Origin: Clostridiales bacterium
Lineage (GTDB): Bacteria; Bacillota; Desulfotomaculia; Desulfotomaculales; VENG01
DNA length: 32,358 bases
Assembly (NCBI GenBank): GCA_016278505.1
Contig: JADQBQ010000046.1
Coordinates: forward strand, 1 to 32,358
Direction of reading: 5' to 3'
Each line of letters starts with the position of its first letter. The first letter of the stretch is position 1. Shown here piece by piece: positions 19,480 to 28,788 of this stretch. The notes under the pieces are model-generated. The model was not told the origin of the DNA. It made no database searches and saw only the letters and a list, made by a program, of their open reading frames with translations. The position numbers and the translations under genes were made by a program.

Positions 19480-20496
19480 CTAGGCCCCTACTCCTGATAC
19501 AGCAGCCTTTAGATTTGCAATCCGAAGCATCAACGTATCCAATTCATCGGGTGATAACGACTGGTGACCGTCACAAAGGGCGCGTTGAGGATCCGGGTGC
19601 ATTTCTACAAGCAGCCCATCTGCTCCGGCTGCTATCGCTGCCATAGACATAGGTGCAACTAGTTCGCGCTTTCCTGTGGCATGACTGGGATCAACGATTA
19701 CCGGCAAATGGGTTAATCCTTTTACCAACGGAACTGCACTTAAATCCAATGTATTGCGGGTATATTTCTCAAAGGTACGTATACCTCGCTCGCACAATAC
19801 CACTGAGGGATTACCTTCCGATACAACATATTCCGCTGCCATAAGCCATTCCTCTATTGTTGCCGACAGTCCCCGCTTTAACAGAACCGGCTTTTGGCAC
19901 CGCCCCACAGCCTGTAACAGTTTAAAATTTTGCATATTCCTGGCACCTACCTGCACCATATCAACATATCCAAGGGCAAGTTCCAGGCTCCATTCATCAA
20001 TTACTTCTGTAACTGTTGCCAATCCGCTCTCTTTTGCAGCAGCTGACATTAACATTAACCCCTCTTCCTGTAATCCCTGAAAACTATAGGGAGAAGTCCT
20101 GGGTTTGAACGTTCCGCCCCTTAATATTGTGGCACCCGCAGCAGCCGCCCGGCGTGCCGCTGTTAGAAGTTGGTCACGACTTTCCACAGCGCAAGGACCG
20201 GCTATTACCACCGGCTGCTCCCCACCTATGACTGCATTTTTTACTTTTATCAAGGTCGAATCATTACGTATTTCTCTGCTCACCAGTTTGAAAGGCTGCA
20301 TAATAGGTACCACTTTTTCCACTCCCGGCAGGACTTCCAGATTTAAAGAATTTATTGCTGTCCGGTCCCCCACTGCTCCAATGACTATACGGTTAACTCC
20401 CCTAATTAAATGACCTTGAAAACCAATTTTCTCTAATTTATTCATTACTACCACTATATCTTGTTCCCGTGCACCAACATCCATAACGATAACCAT
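19480..20496 (-). CDS. aroF: DAHP synthase with N-terminal ferredoxin-like regulatory domain (338 aa)
   Basis: The enzyme catalyses the first step of the shikimate pathway, joining phosphoenolpyruvate and erythrose-4-phosphate. It is of the AroA-I-beta (KDO8PS-like) type. An N-terminal domain of about 70 residues (MVIVMDVGAREQD ... IGAVGDR) is the ferredoxin-like domain that gives feedback control in some homologs. The barrel follows, with AGPCAVES (metal Cys), RGGTFKPRTSPYSFQG, VGARNMQNF and DPSHATGKREL (metal His). The ATG at 20496 has GGAGGGG just upstream. It is first in the operon with pheA and sits directly behind the T-box leader. A shorter paralog lies at 27772-28632. Confidence 0.95.
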   Translation of the reverse strand: MVIVMDVGAREQDIVVVMNKLEKIGFQGHLIRGVNRIVIGAVGDRTAINSLNLEVLPGVEKVVPIMQPFKLVSREIRNDSTLIKVKNAVIGGEQPVVIAGPCAVESRDQLLTAARRAAAAGATILRGGTFKPRTSPYSFQGLQEEGLMLMSAAAKESGLATVTEVIDEWSLELALGYVDMVQVGARNMQNFKLLQAVGRCQKPVLLKRGLSATIEEWLMAAEYVVSEGNPSVVLCERGIRTFEKYTRNTLDLSAVPLVKGLTHLPVIVDPSHATGKRELVAPMSMAAIAAGADGLLVEMHPDPQRALCDGHQSLSPDELDTLMLRIANLKAAVSGVGA

Positions 20497-20524
20497 GGAT
20501 ACCCCTCCGTTTTTAGTTTTAATA

Positions 20525-20990
20525 AAATAAAAAAACCCGCCGCATTCTTCCTCTAAAAGAGGACGAAAGCGACAGGTCTTCCGCGGTACCACCTCAGTTG
20601 GCCCTAATGGTTATAGGACCCACTTATTTTCAAGTACGGGAATAGAAATATACCTTTTGTACTTACATCTTTTGTAACAGCAGGAAAAATAAAAAAAGCC
20701 CCCGCCCAGTAGGGACGAGAAGCCTTACGCTTTCCGTGTTACCACCCTAATTGCCCGCGTTATAAATAACACACAGGCCCTCGGTGCAAGTACGGGAAAT
20801 ATATTTACATCCGATACTCGCTCCCCTTTAACGTGGGAAGGTTACGTCCTGACCTACTTACCGCGGGTGGCGGTTTCAGCCGGCATCTCCGGAGAGAACT
20901 TCAACGGGTCATGTTTTAGAAGCGCTCTCAGCCGGTGACGCTCCTTCTCTGAAAAACTGGAACCAGTCTACTTTTCTCCTTCATTGACTT
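20525..20990 (-). promoter_or_regulatory. Phe-type T-box leader with duplicated antiterminator/terminator module
   Basis: Reading leftward, Stem I lies at about 20990-20890. An AGTA S-turn strand (20972-20969) faces a GAAG strand, and a GGAGA/TCTCC helix closes the loop. In that loop the codon in the specifier position is TTC (20898-20896), for Phe. A stem III-like hairpin follows, then a first T-box (GGGTGGTAACACGG, in 20751-20734) and a GC-rich terminator ending in a T-run (about 20725-20691). A second stem III-like hairpin, a second T-box (GAGGTGGTACCGCGG, in 20595-20581) and a second terminator (about 20577-20530) come next, with no room for a second full Stem I. Uncharged tRNA-Phe should raise expression of the DAHP synthase and pheA. 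Confidence 0.88.
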
Positions 20991-21066
20991 TAAATATATT
21001 ATTAAATTATTGTTATGAGATTATAGCACCTTTGTGCATAAAAATCAAATTGTTTTTAAAAAAATT

Positions 21067-22934: not shown

Positions 22935-22963
22935 TTGACAATGTCAACAAAATAAACTAATAT
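22935..22963 (+). promoter_or_regulatory. trp operon promoter with palindromic -35 region
   Basis: TTGACA (22935-22940) and TAATAT (22958-22963) are 17 bp apart, the same boxes as the promoter at 5306. The -35 box is half of a palindrome, TTGACA-A-TGTCAA (22935-22947), so a dimeric protein could bind here. Transcription would start near 22970, just before the (G/U)AG array. Confidence 0.65.
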
Positions 22964-22988: not shown

Positions 22989-23048
22989 TAGTTTTTTAGA
23001 AGAGATGAGATGAGTAAGAATTATTTTTTGGAGCTGAGCTGAGAAGAG
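22989..23048 (+). promoter_or_regulatory. TRAP-type binding array in the trpE leader
   Basis: Triplets of the form TAG or GAG begin at 22989, 22997, 23002, 23007, 23012, 23031, 23036, 23041 and 23046. Within each block the spacing is exactly two bases. This is the pattern bound by the Trp-activated protein TRAP (MtrB) in Bacillus trp leaders. It begins about 20 nt after the predicted transcription start and ends about 20 nt before the terminator, as in that system. Confidence 0.75.
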
Positions 23049-23068
23049 GCGGATAAATCGTACTGATA

Positions 23069-23107
23069 AACAACCGTCATTCATCAGGAATGCGGTTGTT
23101 TTTTTAT
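23069..23107 (+). terminator. trp attenuator terminator
   Basis: AACAACCG/CGGTTGTT arms with an inner CATTC/GAATG helix are followed by TTTTTTTA. It lies between the (G/U)AG array and the trpE ribosome site, so it would switch off the operon when the array is bound. I could not define a clear antiterminator by eye. Confidence 0.85.
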
Positions 23108-23153
23108 TTTTTATACCACCCCCTTCGGCTGCTCCCGAGGAGGAATTATCCTT

Positions 23154-24665
23154 ATGGCAAACCCACCTTTTCGGGAATTTCTTTCCCTGTGCAGTCATTA
23201 TAACTTAATTCCCGTTGCGACAGAAGACCTTGGAGATATTGAAACTCCTATCTCCACATATCTTAAAATCAAATCATCAAGCCGTGGTCCTACTTTCCTT
23301 TTAGAGAGCTTAGAAGACGGTATCAATAAAGGAAGGTATTCTTTTATCGGCATGGATCCCTTATTGGTGTACAAAAGCAGAGACGGTAGCGGGCAGGTTA
23401 CATTTAAAAACGGTAGCAGCTGCGAGCAAAACGGTACCCCCACCAAAGTTTTAGATTTATTACTAAAACGCTTCCACGTACCGGAAGAGATGCCGGAAGA
23501 ACTTGGGTTAAGTCATTTTTTCGGTGGTGCCGTTGGTTATTTCGGATACGACACAGTTCGCTCGCTGGAAAGATTACCCTCTCCGCCGCCTGATCCGGTT
23601 GGTCTGCCCGACTGCGCTGTCATGGTACCGGAAACAGTTATTGTGATGGATCACGTGCGCAACGTAACCAAAATTATAACAATGGCCGAACCTGACGGCA
23701 ATCCGATTGAAGCCTACAATAAGGCAACAACCCATCTAAATAATATTAAGGAACTTATTAATACTGTTCGACCTTTCAAGGCAATAGAGAAACCGCTGGT
23801 GCTGCACATTGATTCCTTGGTATCGAGTTTGCCAAGGGAAAAATACTTTAAACGGGTAGAAAAGGCACTTGATTACATTAAGTCCGGAGAAATATTGCAG
23901 GTTGTACTTTCAAGACGGTATTCGATTCCCTATGCGGGAAGTCCCATGGATATCTTTCGGCGTTTACGTTCATTAAATCCGTCACCTTATATGTTTTACC
24001 TTGATTTCGGTGACCCAGTAATTTTAGGAGCATCACCGGAAATGCTTGTTCAGGTAAAAGGAAAAACCGTAAAGACCAAGCCTATAGCGGGAACCAGGCC
24101 AAGAAGCAAAGACCCCAAAAGAGACAATGAACTGGCTAAAGAACTGCTGCTTGACGAAAAAGAAAGAGCGGAACACCTTATGTTGGTTGATTTGGGTCGA
24201 AACGACTTGGGACGTGTATGTACACCGGGCAGTGTAAAAGTTCCAAATTTTATGCAGGTAGAGAAATTCTCTCACGTAATGCATCTGGTTTCCGACGTAA
24301 AAGGGCAGCTTAACCCGGATATTCATCCCCTTCAAGCTCTTGAAGCCTGTTTCCCAGCCGGCACCGTCAGCGGGGCACCCAAGGTAAGGGCGATGGAAAT
24401 AATTAACGAGCTTGAGCCCTGCCGCCGGGGAATATATGCCGGAGCTGTAGGTTATGTGGGCTTCAATAATCTGTTGGACACTGCAATAGCAATTCGTACC
24501 CTGGTATTCTCCCGCGGTACTGCACATATTCAGGCCGGAGGCGGAATTGTCGCTGATTCTGTGCCCGAGCAGGAATACCAAGAAACAGTAAATAAGGCAG
24601 GAGCCCTGCTGCAGGCCTTAGGGATGGAAGAAGACAGGAGGGCTGCTCGTGGTCTTAATGATTGA
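23154..24665 (+). CDS. trpE: Anthranilate synthase component I (503 aa)
   Basis: TrpE makes anthranilate from chorismate with ammonia supplied by TrpG. The Trp feedback site motif LLES is present at 49-52. The catalytic half has [12 protein letters not shown], then SPEMLVQV, the signature [20 protein letters not shown] and the [17 protein letters not shown] active-site stretch. Length is normal. The ATG at 23154 follows CGAGGAGGAAT. It overlaps trpG by 17 nt, giving tight coupling of the two subunits. It is the first gene of the trp operon, behind a TRAP-type attenuator. Confidence 0.97.
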
Positions 24666-25221
24666 TAATTATGATTCATTTACTTATAACCTATACCAGC
24701 TGATTAGTGAATTAGGGGCAGATGTTACGGTGCACAGAAACGATTGTATTACAGCACACCAGGTCCTGGAAAATAGCTACGGTTCAATTATCATTTCCCC
24801 CGGGCCCGGAGGGCCTAAAGACGCGGGCATCTCAATTGAACTGGTACAGCAAAACCAGGGACATACGCCCATTCTAGGAGTGTGTTTGGGGCACCAGGTG
24901 ATTGCAGAAGCCTTTGGAGGAAGTATTATCCTTAGCCCGCGTTTAATGCATGGAAAGACTTCACAAGTTTACCACGACGGCAAGTCCATTTTCGCCGGCC
25001 TACCAAATCCCTTTAGGGTGGTTCGCTATCACTCACTGGCAGTGGATAAGTACAGCCTCCCACCCTGCATTGATGTTAGCGCATGGACCGCCGGCGGGGA
25101 AATCATGGCCATAAGGCATAAAGACTTGCCTGTGGAAGGCGTTCAATTTCACCCGGAATCTCTGCTTACAGAACACGGCGGTGATCTGCTGCAAAACTGG
25201 CTGAGGATGGTAAAAAATTGA
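24649..25221 (+). CDS. trpG: Anthranilate synthase component II, glutamine amidotransferase (190 aa)
   Basis: This class I amidotransferase subunit feeds ammonia to TrpE. The catalytic triad is visible: Cys79 in GVCLGHQ, and His168 and Glu170 in [19 protein letters not shown] and ISPGPGGPKDAG are standard. The GTG start at 24649 follows CAGGAGGGC and lies inside the end of trpE. In many Firmicutes the same protein also serves p-aminobenzoate synthesis; the sequence does not exclude that. Confidence 0.96.
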   Translation: MVLMIDNYDSFTYNLYQLISELGADVTVHRNDCITAHQVLENSYGSIIISPGPGGPKDAGISIELVQQNQGHTPILGVCLGHQVIAEAFGGSIILSPRLMHGKTSQVYHDGKSIFAGLPNPFRVVRYHSLAVDKYSLPPCIDVSAWTAGGEIMAIRHKDLPVEGVQFHPESLLTEHGGDLLQNWLRMVKN

Positions 25222-25238
25222 TCGGGTAAATAACCTTG

Positions 25239-25276
25239 GAGATGAGTTGAGTTGAGAATGACGAGAAGGAGGAGAG
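25239..25276 (+). promoter_or_regulatory. GAG-repeat array over the trpD ribosome site (TRAP-like)
   Basis: GAG triplets begin at 25239, 25244, 25249, 25254, 25263, 25269 and 25274. The first four are spaced by exactly two bases, and the last ones run through AAGGAGGAGAG, which must be the ribosome site of the GTG at 25281. A TRAP ring bound here would block trpD translation, as known for Bacillus trpG and trpP. Confidence 0.6.
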
Positions 25277-25280
25277 ACAA

Positions 25281-26318
25281 GTGTTGAAAGGATTATTGCA
25301 CAAAGTTATCAGCGGGGAAAATTTGGTCGAAAAAGAGGCGGCAGAAGCAATGGAACAGATCATGTCCGGCATGGCCACACCTGCTCAGATTGCTTCATTA
25401 CTTACTGCACTGCACTTAAAGGGTGAAACTGAGGATGAAATAACAGGGTTTGCACGGGTAATGCGCAGCAAAGCAACACCGGTAACCTACAGCCACCCAA
25501 TGCTGATAGACACATGTGGCACCGGTGGAGACGGCTTACACACCTTTAATATTTCCACCACCGTGGCTTTCATCTTGGCCGGTGCCGGCATGAAGGTCGC
25601 TAAACACGGGAACCGTTCTGTATCCAGCAGTTGCGGCAGCGCCGATGTACTGGAGGCGCTGGGTGTCAACCTTGATTTAAGCCCTAAAAGTCTGGCTGCC
25701 TGCCTTGAAGAGACCGGTTTTGCGTTCCTTTTCGCCCCGGCACTGCATACAGCCATGAAGCACGCGGCAGAACCGCGACGCGAATTGGGATTTCGGACTA
25801 TTTTCAATGTGCTTGGCCCCTTAACAAACCCCGCGGGAGCACAATATCAAGTTTTAGGAGTGTACCATCCCCGGCTTACACGCCTCCTGGCCGGAGTGTT
25901 GTGCAGGCTGGGAACGGAAAGAGCTTTTGTCATTCACGGTGACGGCGGGCTGGATGAAATTTCACCTTCGGGCCCTACTTTAATTTGCGAAGTCAAAGAT
26001 GGAAAAGTAAATGAATACTACCTTGACCCCTGCGAACTTGGCATTCCTAAAACGTCCATTGCTTCGCTTACAGGAGGATCGCCACAGGAAAATGCAGTTA
26101 TTACTAAGGAGATCTTAACCGGCAAACATGGGCCACAAAGGGATACGGTTCTTTTGAACACAGCTCCGGGATTGGTTGCCTGCGGCAAGGCCAAGAACTT
26201 CACTGAAGGCATGCAAATTGCCGCCCAAATAATTGATTCCGGCCTGGCCATGAGAAAGGTGGAGGAACTGATAAGCTTCTCGCGGAAGCATGCGCAAAAG
26301 CAGGTGTCAGGTTTATGA
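25281..26318 (+). CDS. trpD: Anthranilate phosphoribosyltransferase (345 aa)
   Basis: TrpD transfers phosphoribose from PRPP to anthranilate. The PRPP loop DTCGTGGDGLHTFNIST is near residues 74-90. KHGNRSVSSSCGSADVLEALG and RRELGFRTIFNVLGPLTNP are standard active-site stretches. The start is GTG at 25281, with the ribosome site embedded in a GAG array. There is a 59-bp gap after trpG, the only gap of size in the operon, which fits a separate control point. The 3' end overlaps trpC by 4 nt (ATGA). Confidence 0.97.
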   Translation: MLKGLLHKVISGENLVEKEAAEAMEQIMSGMATPAQIASLLTALHLKGETEDEITGFARVMRSKATPVTYSHPMLIDTCGTGGDGLHTFNISTTVAFILAGAGMKVAKHGNRSVSSSCGSADVLEALGVNLDLSPKSLAACLEETGFAFLFAPALHTAMKHAAEPRRELGFRTIFNVLGPLTNPAGAQYQVLGVYHPRLTRLLAGVLCRLGTERAFVIHGDGGLDEISPSGPTLICEVKDGKVNEYYLDPCELGIPKTSIASLTGGSPQENAVITKEILTGKHGPQRDTVLLNTAPGLVACGKAKNFTEGMQIAAQIIDSGLAMRKVEELISFSRKHAQKQVSGL

Positions 26319-27136
26319 TAGCACCCACAAACAACTCTATCTTGGCAGACATTATACTGGCCAAAAAATTAGAAGTAGGGGCTGCGAAAAAGGTAACTCC
26401 TCTGGCAGATATTAAGCAAGAAGTAGATAAACTACCCCCTGTGCGGCCTTTTGCATCAAAATTAAGGCGGCAGGACAGAGTGGCACTAATTGCTGAGGTT
26501 AAAAGAAGATCCCCCTCAAAAGGGCTTTTACGGCACCATTTTGACGTACCTGCCATTGCCCGGGACTACACCCAAGCAGGGGCGGCGGCATTATCGGTAC
26601 TGATTGACCAAAGCTTTTTCGGCGGAGACCCGGGTTTTATTGCCCAAGCGCGAGAAAATAGTGACCTGCCAATATTGTGTAAAGAGTTTATTGTTGACCC
26701 TTATCAGATATATCAGGCCCGCCTCCTAGGAGCCGATGCCATTTTACTTATTGTCAAAGTTTTAACCGGCGCTGATTTAGAACATTTTACGAGCCTAGCT
26801 AAAAGACTGGGATTAGAGGTACTGGTGGAAACCAACACCTCTGAAGAAATAAAGCAGGCCTTAGGGGCAGGAGCCAAAATAATAGGAATAAACAACCGCA
26901 ATTTAGATACTTTTCAAACTGATATTAATACAACTTTATCATTACGTAATGCAATTACCGACCCGGAAATTACTGTTGTCAGTGAGAGCGGGATCCGTTC
27001 CCACAGTGACATGAAGCTACTGGAAGAGCACGGAATTCACGCTGCCCTGGTGGGCGAAACACTAATGCGCAGAACTGATTTAAAGCAAGCTGTGCGAGAG
27101 TTAACCAGGTTTGAAGGCAACAGGGAGGTAAATTAG
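26315..27136 (+). CDS. trpC: Indole-3-glycerol phosphate synthase (273 aa)
   Basis: TrpC closes the indole ring in a TIM barrel. Conserved active-site parts are IAEVKRRSPSKG, LCKEFIVDPYQIYQAR, LVETNTSEE, IIGINNRNLDTF and VSESGIRSHSD. Length is normal, with the usual N-terminal helical extension. The ATG overlaps the trpD stop (ATGA), so translation is coupled. TAG is followed directly by the GTG of trpF. Confidence 0.97.
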   Translation: MIAPTNNSILADIILAKKLEVGAAKKVTPLADIKQEVDKLPPVRPFASKLRRQDRVALIAEVKRRSPSKGLLRHHFDVPAIARDYTQAGAAALSVLIDQSFFGGDPGFIAQARENSDLPILCKEFIVDPYQIYQARLLGADAILLIVKVLTGADLEHFTSLAKRLGLEVLVETNTSEEIKQALGAGAKIIGINNRNLDTFQTDINTTLSLRNAITDPEITVVSESGIRSHSDMKLLEEHGIHAALVGETLMRRTDLKQAVRELTRFEGNREVN

Positions 27137-27775
27137 GTGTTTTTTCAAAGGGGTGACCGGGTTAAGGTTAAGATATGCGGCATTAAAGACCAAGAAACGG
27201 CAAAAGCGGCTATTGATGCAGGTGCGGATGCATTGGGTTTTATTTTTGCACCCGAAAGTAAACGCTACATCTCCCCCCGCGAAGCCAAAGAAATTATTGC
27301 GGCTATGCCCCCTGGTGTTGATGCCGTGGGCGTTTTCTCCAATGCTCCCCGGGAATCGGTTAATAAAATCGCTGCCCAGTGCAATTTGTCTGCTGTCCAG
27401 CTGCACGGTGAAGAACCGTCTCATTACCTAAACACGAATAGTTTACCGGTTATAAAATGTGTAAAAGTTCAAGATAAATTTGACTTGAAACAAGCCCGTG
27501 CAATTAAAGCCGATGCCATACTACTAGACACATACCACCCTTATTTATCCGGCGGGACCGGGGAAACGTTTGACTGGTCGCTGGTGAAAAATGCTGGTGA
27601 CAGCCTGCCCCTTATTTTGGCCGGAGGGCTTACTGACGATAACGTTAGTACTGCTGTTAAGACCGTCAGGCCATGTGCAGTGGATGTCTCCAGTGGAGTG
27701 GAAAGCTCTGGGGTAAAAGATAAAGTAAAAATAAAAGCATTTGTAACAAAAGCCAAGGAGGTTGTTTACCTATGA
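27137..27775 (+). CDS. trpF: Phosphoribosylanthranilate isomerase (212 aa)
   Basis: TrpF catalyses the Amadori rearrangement before TrpC. VKICGIKDQETAKAA holds the catalytic Cys, and LDTYHPYLSGGTGETFDW the catalytic Asp and phosphate loop. AGGLTDDNVSTAV and AVDVSSGVESSGVKD complete the barrel. The GTG at 27137 follows GGGAGGT and touches the trpC stop. Its end overlaps the second DAHP synthase by 4 nt (ATGA). Confidence 0.96.
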   Translation: MFFQRGDRVKVKICGIKDQETAKAAIDAGADALGFIFAPESKRYISPREAKEIIAAMPPGVDAVGVFSNAPRESVNKIAAQCNLSAVQLHGEEPSHYLNTNSLPVIKCVKVQDKFDLKQARAIKADAILLDTYHPYLSGGTGETFDWSLVKNAGDSLPLILAGGLTDDNVSTAVKTVRPCAVDVSSGVESSGVKDKVKIKAFVTKAKEVVYL

Positions 27776-28632
27776 CTACCCTACCCGATACTTTGCCATC
27801 AACAATACAGGGGATGAAAACTTTGCCGCCCTATAAACTAGTAAGCCGGGATAACCACCCTCAGAATACCGTAATAAAGCTGGGGACAGCTCAAATAGGA
27901 AAGGGCACGACCATTATAGCCGGGCCTTGTGCGGTGGAAAACAGGGAAACCATGCTTAAGCTGGCCTCTTCCTTAAGCTCCCTGGGAGTCCATATCTTAC
28001 GCGGAGGTGCCTATAAACCGAGAACTTCCCCTTATTCCTTTGACGGTCTCGGCAAAGAAGGTCTTGAAATATTAGCTGAGGCCAAAAAGTATTCGGGATT
28101 GCCCATCATTACAGAATTAACTGACATCAGGCATATTGACCTTTTATGTGCCTATGCGGACATAATCCAGGTAGGCAGCAGAAACATGCAAAACTTCAGT
28201 CTACTAAAAGAATTAGGCAGAGTTAATCACCCGGTAATGCTTAAGCGGGGCCTTTCGGCTACTTTGGAAGAGTGGCTTTTAGCCGCGGAATATATCATGG
28301 CAGAGGGTAACCCTAACGTTATACTCTGTGAAAGAGGTATCCGCAGCTTTGATTCCTACACTAGAAATACTTTTGATATTAACGCGGTACCTGCCATAAA
28401 AAATCTTTCCCACCTTCCGCTAATTGCTGATCCCAGCCATGGAACGGGACGACGTGAATTGGTGGCACCGGTGGCAAAGGCGGCCCTGGCCGCCGGCGCA
28501 GATGGAATAATGGTAGAGGTGCATCCCCAGCCGGCACAGGCATTATCAGACGGGCAACAATCACTTACCCTTGATGAAATGGGCCAAATGATGGCACAGA
28601 TGAAATCTGTTGCCCCTCAACTAGCAGGATAA
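27772..28632 (+). CDS. aroF: Second DAHP synthase, without the N-terminal regulatory domain (286 aa)
   Basis: The barrel matches the enzyme at 19480-20496: AGPCAVENRE, RGGAYKPRTSPYSFDG, VGSRNMQNF, LKRGLSATLEEWL and DPSHGTGRREL are nearly the same. It lacks the ferredoxin-like N-terminal domain; only about 35 residues precede KLVSRD-NTVIKLG. It is therefore expected to escape the feedback that such a domain gives. The ATG overlaps the trpF stop and has AAGGAGG upstream. It is last in the trp operon, so its supply of DAHP should follow Trp demand. trpB and trpA would normally stand here but are absent. Confidence 0.95.
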   Translation: MTTLPDTLPSTIQGMKTLPPYKLVSRDNHPQNTVIKLGTAQIGKGTTIIAGPCAVENRETMLKLASSLSSLGVHILRGGAYKPRTSPYSFDGLGKEGLEILAEAKKYSGLPIITELTDIRHIDLLCAYADIIQVGSRNMQNFSLLKELGRVNHPVMLKRGLSATLEEWLLAAEYIMAEGNPNVILCERGIRSFDSYTRNTFDINAVPAIKNLSHLPLIADPSHGTGRRELVAPVAKAALAAGADGIMVEVHPQPAQALSDGQQSLTLDEMGQMMAQMKSVAPQLAG

Positions 28633-28650: not shown

Positions 28651-28686
28651 AAAAACCCCGGTTTTGTTTTTACCGGGGTTTTTCTT
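28651..28686 (+). terminator. Terminator of the trp operon
   Basis: AAAAACCCCGG/CCGGGGTTTTT arms lie at 28651-28661 and 28673-28683, just after the last stop. Confidence 0.9.
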
Positions 28687-28788
28687 TTACCCCTCAAATT
28701 CAACCACTAGGCGCAGTACTAGTTACTTTATCCGCAAAGTACATTATAATTGCAAGTAAATTCTGAATCCTAAAAGGGGTGCATTTTT

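Follow-up and report, generated by a model that had tools for sequence, protein, structure and literature searches.

How is a trp operon regulated when its transcript carries, in addition to a TRAP-type array in the leader, a second array at the ribosome binding site of an internal gene? Most of what is known of TRAP, a textbook regulator, comes from Bacillus, and the question arises here in a member of the class Desulfotomaculia (GTDB) with a genome of 3.92 Mb, from which a stretch of 32,358 nt (the window) was analysed. A sequence-only reading of the window had proposed that a TRAP-type operator lies at trpD. That proposal is supported, as the genome encodes TRAP and the phased triplets at trpD are conserved and track the presence of TRAP among relatives.

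Organization of the trp operon

The operon and its control elements are arranged as follows, all on the + strand of the window.

22935..22963, +, probable trp operon promoter, TTGACA-17-TAATAT
22997..23050, +, leader TRAP-type array, two groups of four KAG, TAGAAGAGATGAGATGAG and GAGCTGAGCTGAGAAGAG
23068..23103, +, leader intrinsic terminator, a hairpin (-16.7 kcal/mol) and then a T run
23119..23145, +, possible hairpin pairing the trpE Shine-Dalgarno (fold of 23112-23160, -10.9 kcal/mol)
23154..24665, +, trpE, anthranilate synthase component I (TIGR00564, above cut-off)
24649..25221, +, trpG, anthranilate synthase component II (TIGR00566, above cut-off), overlapping trpE
25222..25280, +, trpG-trpD gap, 59 nt
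25239..25281, +, putative TRAP-type operator, seven in-register GAG and one AAG, reaching the trpD start codon; based on conservation
25266..25272, +, trpD Shine-Dalgarno AAGGAGG, within the GAG array, read from the sequence
25281..26318, +, trpD, anthranilate phosphoribosyltransferase, GTG start (TIGR01245, above cut-off)
26315..27136, +, trpC (NF001377, above cut-off), overlapping trpD
27137..27775, +, trpF (NF002298, above cut-off), abutting trpC
27772..28632, +, aroF-type DAHP synthase (TIGR01361, above cut-off), overlapping trpF
28651..28688, +, terminator-like hairpin 3' of aroF, probable operon end, read from the sequence

The trpE and trpG genes overlap by 17 nt, trpD and trpC by 4 nt, and trpF and aroF by 4 nt, while trpC and trpF abut, leaving the gap between trpG and trpD as the only sizeable one in the operon, just as had been claimed. 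Because trpE overlaps trpG, and trpD, trpC, trpF and aroF each overlap or abut their neighbour, a site at trpD would control entry to a second translational unit. An Rfam scan matched no family at the trp leader or in the trpG-trpD gap. Elsewhere in the window, a T-box leader (RF00230, 103 bits; 20708-20993, - strand) precedes a further DAHP synthase gene (19480-20592, - strand); of the genome's DAHP synthases, one is of T-box type and one is in the trp operon.

The regulator was located by a profile search of the genome, which found TRAP (PF02081) at C36:116517-116714 with an E value of 1.7e-39. Residues 11-76 of the encoded protein align with solved TRAP chains, for example 1c9s, and TRAP was found in 105 of the 113 genomes of the class.

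A phased array across the trpD ribosome binding site

The letters at 25239-25281 are GAGATGAGTTGAGTTGAGAATGACGAGAAGGAGGAGAGACAAG, continuing into the GTG start of trpD. GAG begins at 25239, 25244, 25249, 25254, 25263, 25269, 25272 and 25274, which makes eight triplets with overlaps and seven without, the latter (25239-25276) bearing out the count originally given. In register the site reads GAG-AT-GAG-TT-GAG-TT-GAG-(AATGAC)-GAG-AAG-GAG-GA-GAG-AC-AAG, followed by GTG at 25281, with a spacing of GAG-2-GAG-2-GAG-2-GAG-6-GAG-3-GAG-2-GAG-2-AAG. The code recognized by TRAP is GAG with 2-3 nt spacers (PMC3913778), and from 25239 to 25276 the site consists of (G/U)AG triplets at that spacing apart from a single 6-nt interruption; wider spacers are said to occur now and then in natural TRAP sites (PMC5378976). 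The array also runs through the ribosome site, as the sequence-only reading had stated, with AAGGAGG (25266-25272) inside it and the GTG at its end. The complement of seven GAG plus AAG compares with three to seven uninterrupted triplets at the trpD start in most relatives and up to nine in one of them (L309).

Folding over the gap in the window gave only weak structure (-4.6 kcal/mol), and no hairpin-plus-T-run terminator is present there, leaving an array that overlaps the ribosome binding site with no terminator downstream in the gap. Two other readings of the gap were rejected. A terminator or attenuator was dismissed on a survey of trpG-trpD gaps of at least 80 nt, among which T runs of five occurred in only two cases; neither genome has three or more phased triplets, and the gaps of all that do are free of such runs. 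A leader peptide, for which the window offers short ATG frames, was dismissed because it is the phase of the triplets that is conserved and not a reading frame.

These observations bear on the best surviving alternative to ribosome blocking, namely that TRAP binds the site and acts chiefly by transcription termination or polarity within the operon. In the trp leader, TRAP can bring about termination independently of the attenuator hairpin (PMC3913778), and a block to trpD translation would be expected to expose untranslated RNA to Rho. Set against this are the lack of any such terminator in the trpG-trpD gap of the window, the lack of T runs of five in the long gaps of array-bearing relatives, and the position of the array, which in most families that have one spans the Shine-Dalgarno and extends to the start codon. 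We consider this alternative improbable.

Conservation within the class

A simpler possibility is that the triplets are merely a strong purine-rich ribosome site, or a standby site, for trpD, with no regulator involved. The motif AAGGAGG does belong to the array, and when the 64-nt purine-rich trpD stretch was subjected to dinucleotide shuffling, a chain of at least four triplets appeared in 100 of 5000 shuffles (2%). Taken singly the stretch is therefore less striking, and it is the comparative data that convince.

For the class, 80 trpD start regions (-60 to +4) were scored for the longest chain of GAG or TAG with 2-3 nt spacers. A chain of at least four was present in 32 of the 80, as against none of 166 matched control starts in the same genomes (trpE 0/78, trpC 0/29, trpF 0/28, mtrB 0/31) and 1 of 79 trpG starts, and the mean chain at trpD was 2.89, compared with 1.41 +/- 0.065 in dinucleotide shuffles. 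These controls, together with genomes that lack TRAP, were used in place of a reversed pattern, which is useless for GAGNN repeats because they are identical when read backwards. TRAP-negative genomes inside the class were excluded as controls, since at least one (G029) retains a 10-triplet trpE leader array, suggesting a missed TRAP gene.

The form of the array points the same way. In family f4 it reads TAG/GAG-CT-GAG-AG-GAG-GA-GAG-CT-GAG-TG, and in family f9, GAG-NN-GAG-NN-GAG-AAG-GAG-GA-GAG-NN-GAG-TG. Among six f9 genomes the 17 triplet columns compared are 100% identical and the spacer columns average 73%, a pattern of fixed triplets and variable spacers that is expected of a TRAP site but not of a ribosome site that is simply purine-rich. 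Beyond the Shine-Dalgarno core the spacers are rich in pyrimidines (CT, TT, TC) while the GAGs are fixed. With the clean control starts, and with the result from TRAP-lacking genomes given below, a purine-rich site devoid of regulation appears less probable still than termination. More remote than either, and readily set aside, is another RNA-binding regulator such as CsrA, which recognizes GGA: a GGA does occur inside the trpD Shine-Dalgarno, as at many ribosome sites, but the conserved unit is GAG at TRAP spacing, the spacers within the array are free, and presence of the site tracks TRAP.

The array is clustered in the class, yet has been repeatedly gained or lost. It is missing from the TRAP-carrying families f16 (0/11) and f2 (0/6) and nearly missing from f5 and f8, and its presence and absence require about 12 changes on the TrpE tree of the class, whose genomes do not count as phylogenetically independent cases. 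A trpG-trpD gap of at least 2 nt was found in 39 of 40 class genomes with the array and 23 of 39 without it (p 2e-5), an association expected if ribosome blocking works only where trpD is uncoupled from trpG.

Two families show further elements near trpG. In most f4 genomes (loci L142, L143, L145-L149, L151, L153 and L154) the trpE-trpG gap contains a split KAG array together with promoter-like sequence, and a terminator-like hairpin of GCCGGCGCTCATTTGAGTGCCGGC and a T run, making it a candidate for an additional TRAP attenuator. In family f6, phased KAG triplets occur at trpG starts, TAGTTTAGGGGAGCTGAGGTGAG in L150 and three triplets in L163, where trpG may be a second translational target.

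Comparison outside the class

In a sample of the phylum outside the class, a trpD chain of at least three occurred in 46 of 64 genomes with TRAP and in none of 20 without (p 3e-9); where trpG lies directly 5' of trpD, the counts were 37 of 43 and 0 of 17 (p 3e-10). The out-of-class genomes were chosen by similarity of their trpD to that of the window and are not phylogenetically independent, so these p-values exaggerate how much independent evidence there is; the direction of the association is nonetheless clear. Among 79 trpD relatives of other lineages (genome contigs), no chain of four or more was found and two had a chain of three. The earlier reading would have failed had spaced GAG triplets not been conserved beyond the purine-rich ribosome site; such conservation is seen across much of the class and in the majority of TRAP-carrying relatives, and phased triplets are absent from the TRAP-lacking genomes of the same gene order. 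With the same arrangement at trpD in dozens of other TRAP-carrying Firmicutes, a second switch on a single mRNA appears to be widespread.

Other TRAP-type arrays in the genome

The four-GAG core GAGNNGAGNNGAGNNGAG occurs exactly in the window only at 25239-25256 and 23031-23048, with none expected from 100 shuffles. The whole genome has 6 matches at 5 places, as compared with about 0.23 expected from base composition:

25239-25256, trpD start, without a terminator
C44:23031, trpE leader, terminator downstream
C15:8549, leader of a second operon, trpB-trpA-trpD2-trpC2-trpF2, terminator downstream
C32:28285, leader of a trpX-like ABC transporter (NF041285, 285 bits, below the cut-off of 390), terminator downstream
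C48:9866, leader before a Uma2-like gene, terminator downstream

Four of the five are at trp genes or the trpX-like gene. As read from the sequences, a terminator-like hairpin and T run lie 3' of every core site except that at trpD, which is the exception in the genome in having TRAP-type triplets on a ribosome site and no terminator.

Several of the other sites merit description in their own right. Upstream of trpB in the trpBADCF operon (L237, G000:C15:7000-17000, locus 1330-1630) there are seemingly two tandem array-plus-terminator units, which would be two consecutive TRAP attenuators. The array and terminator 5' of the trpX-like operon (L239, G000:C32:28285-28327, - strand) likely mark a TRAP-controlled tryptophan importer. 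At L238 (G000:C48:9845-9903, - strand) a strong KAG array and terminator precede the Uma2-like gene by about 180 nt, with no obvious Trp gene. A core site with one mismatch precedes a pabA/trpG-like start (L240, G000:C27:169814-169864, - strand); there a KAG array and terminator are followed by a reading frame starting MIILLDNY, probably pabA/trpG-like and possibly a TRAP-attenuated folate gene.

Relation to known TRAP systems

The site at trpD resembles those of B. subtilis trpG and trpP in having spaced GAG/UAG triplets over the Shine-Dalgarno and start region, no terminator and, by prediction for trpD, TRAP as the regulator. It differs in being internal to a trpEGDCF-aroF transcript that already bears a leader array, which places two control points on a single mRNA, and in its number of triplets, seven GAG plus AAG here and three to seven in most relatives as against 9-11 reported for B. 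subtilis TRAP sites (PMC4347634, PMC5378976). The B. subtilis trp leader, with 11 KAG repeats and TRAP-dependent attenuation, is matched instead by the trpE leader, where a KAG array is likewise followed by a terminator and there is a possible hairpin over the trpE Shine-Dalgarno; the trpD site, unlike that leader, is intergenic and has no terminator. The proposed mechanism is thus that already known from B. subtilis trpG and trpP, and the target, trpD, would be new. A keyword search of openly licensed papers, mostly of titles and abstracts, found neither a TRAP site at trpD nor its place in a leader-array transcript nor its spread among families, although specialist comparative papers could contain an earlier mention.

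A model for dual control by TRAP

The trpG-trpD gap very probably holds a TRAP operator through which TRAP, activated by Trp, keeps ribosomes from binding at trpD. At high tryptophan, the loaded protein would wrap the GAG array across the trpD Shine-Dalgarno to the GTG, and ribosomes could not initiate there. Direct blocking of ribosome access by TRAP has been reported for B. subtilis, a single repeat overlapping the ribosome site being sufficient (PMC4347634). Expression of trpC, trpF and aroF should fall with that of trpD, by translational coupling or polarity, because each overlaps or abuts the preceding gene; trpE and trpG would form a separate unit governed by the leader attenuator. Transcripts that have passed attenuation, or that are older than the rise in tryptophan, would then be shut off again at trpD. 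The anatomy of the operon implies, as a putative consequence, that trpEG could stay on with trpDCF off, a second shut-off of escaped transcripts being the simpler reading. With seven GAG and a 6-nt break here, and fewer triplets in many relatives than the 9-11 of B. subtilis, the affinity of TRAP for the trpD site may be modest.

It is possible, though rather doubtful, that TRAP-bearing Firmicutes have long and generally had a TRAP operator at trpD in their trpE-G-D operons, splitting one mRNA into two Trp-responsive translational units. On that view anthranilate synthase could be made with the step from anthranilate towards tryptophan turned off, and the translational site at the relocated trpG of B. 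subtilis would exemplify a wider design of internal operators. The relatives allow one to ask, by comparison, what minimum of triplets is enough in natural sites, and the locus yields a model, open to direct test, in which a single protein controls a single mRNA at two points. The data suggest that in many other Firmicutes, too, TRAP acts twice on one trp transcript, once in the leader and again at trpD.
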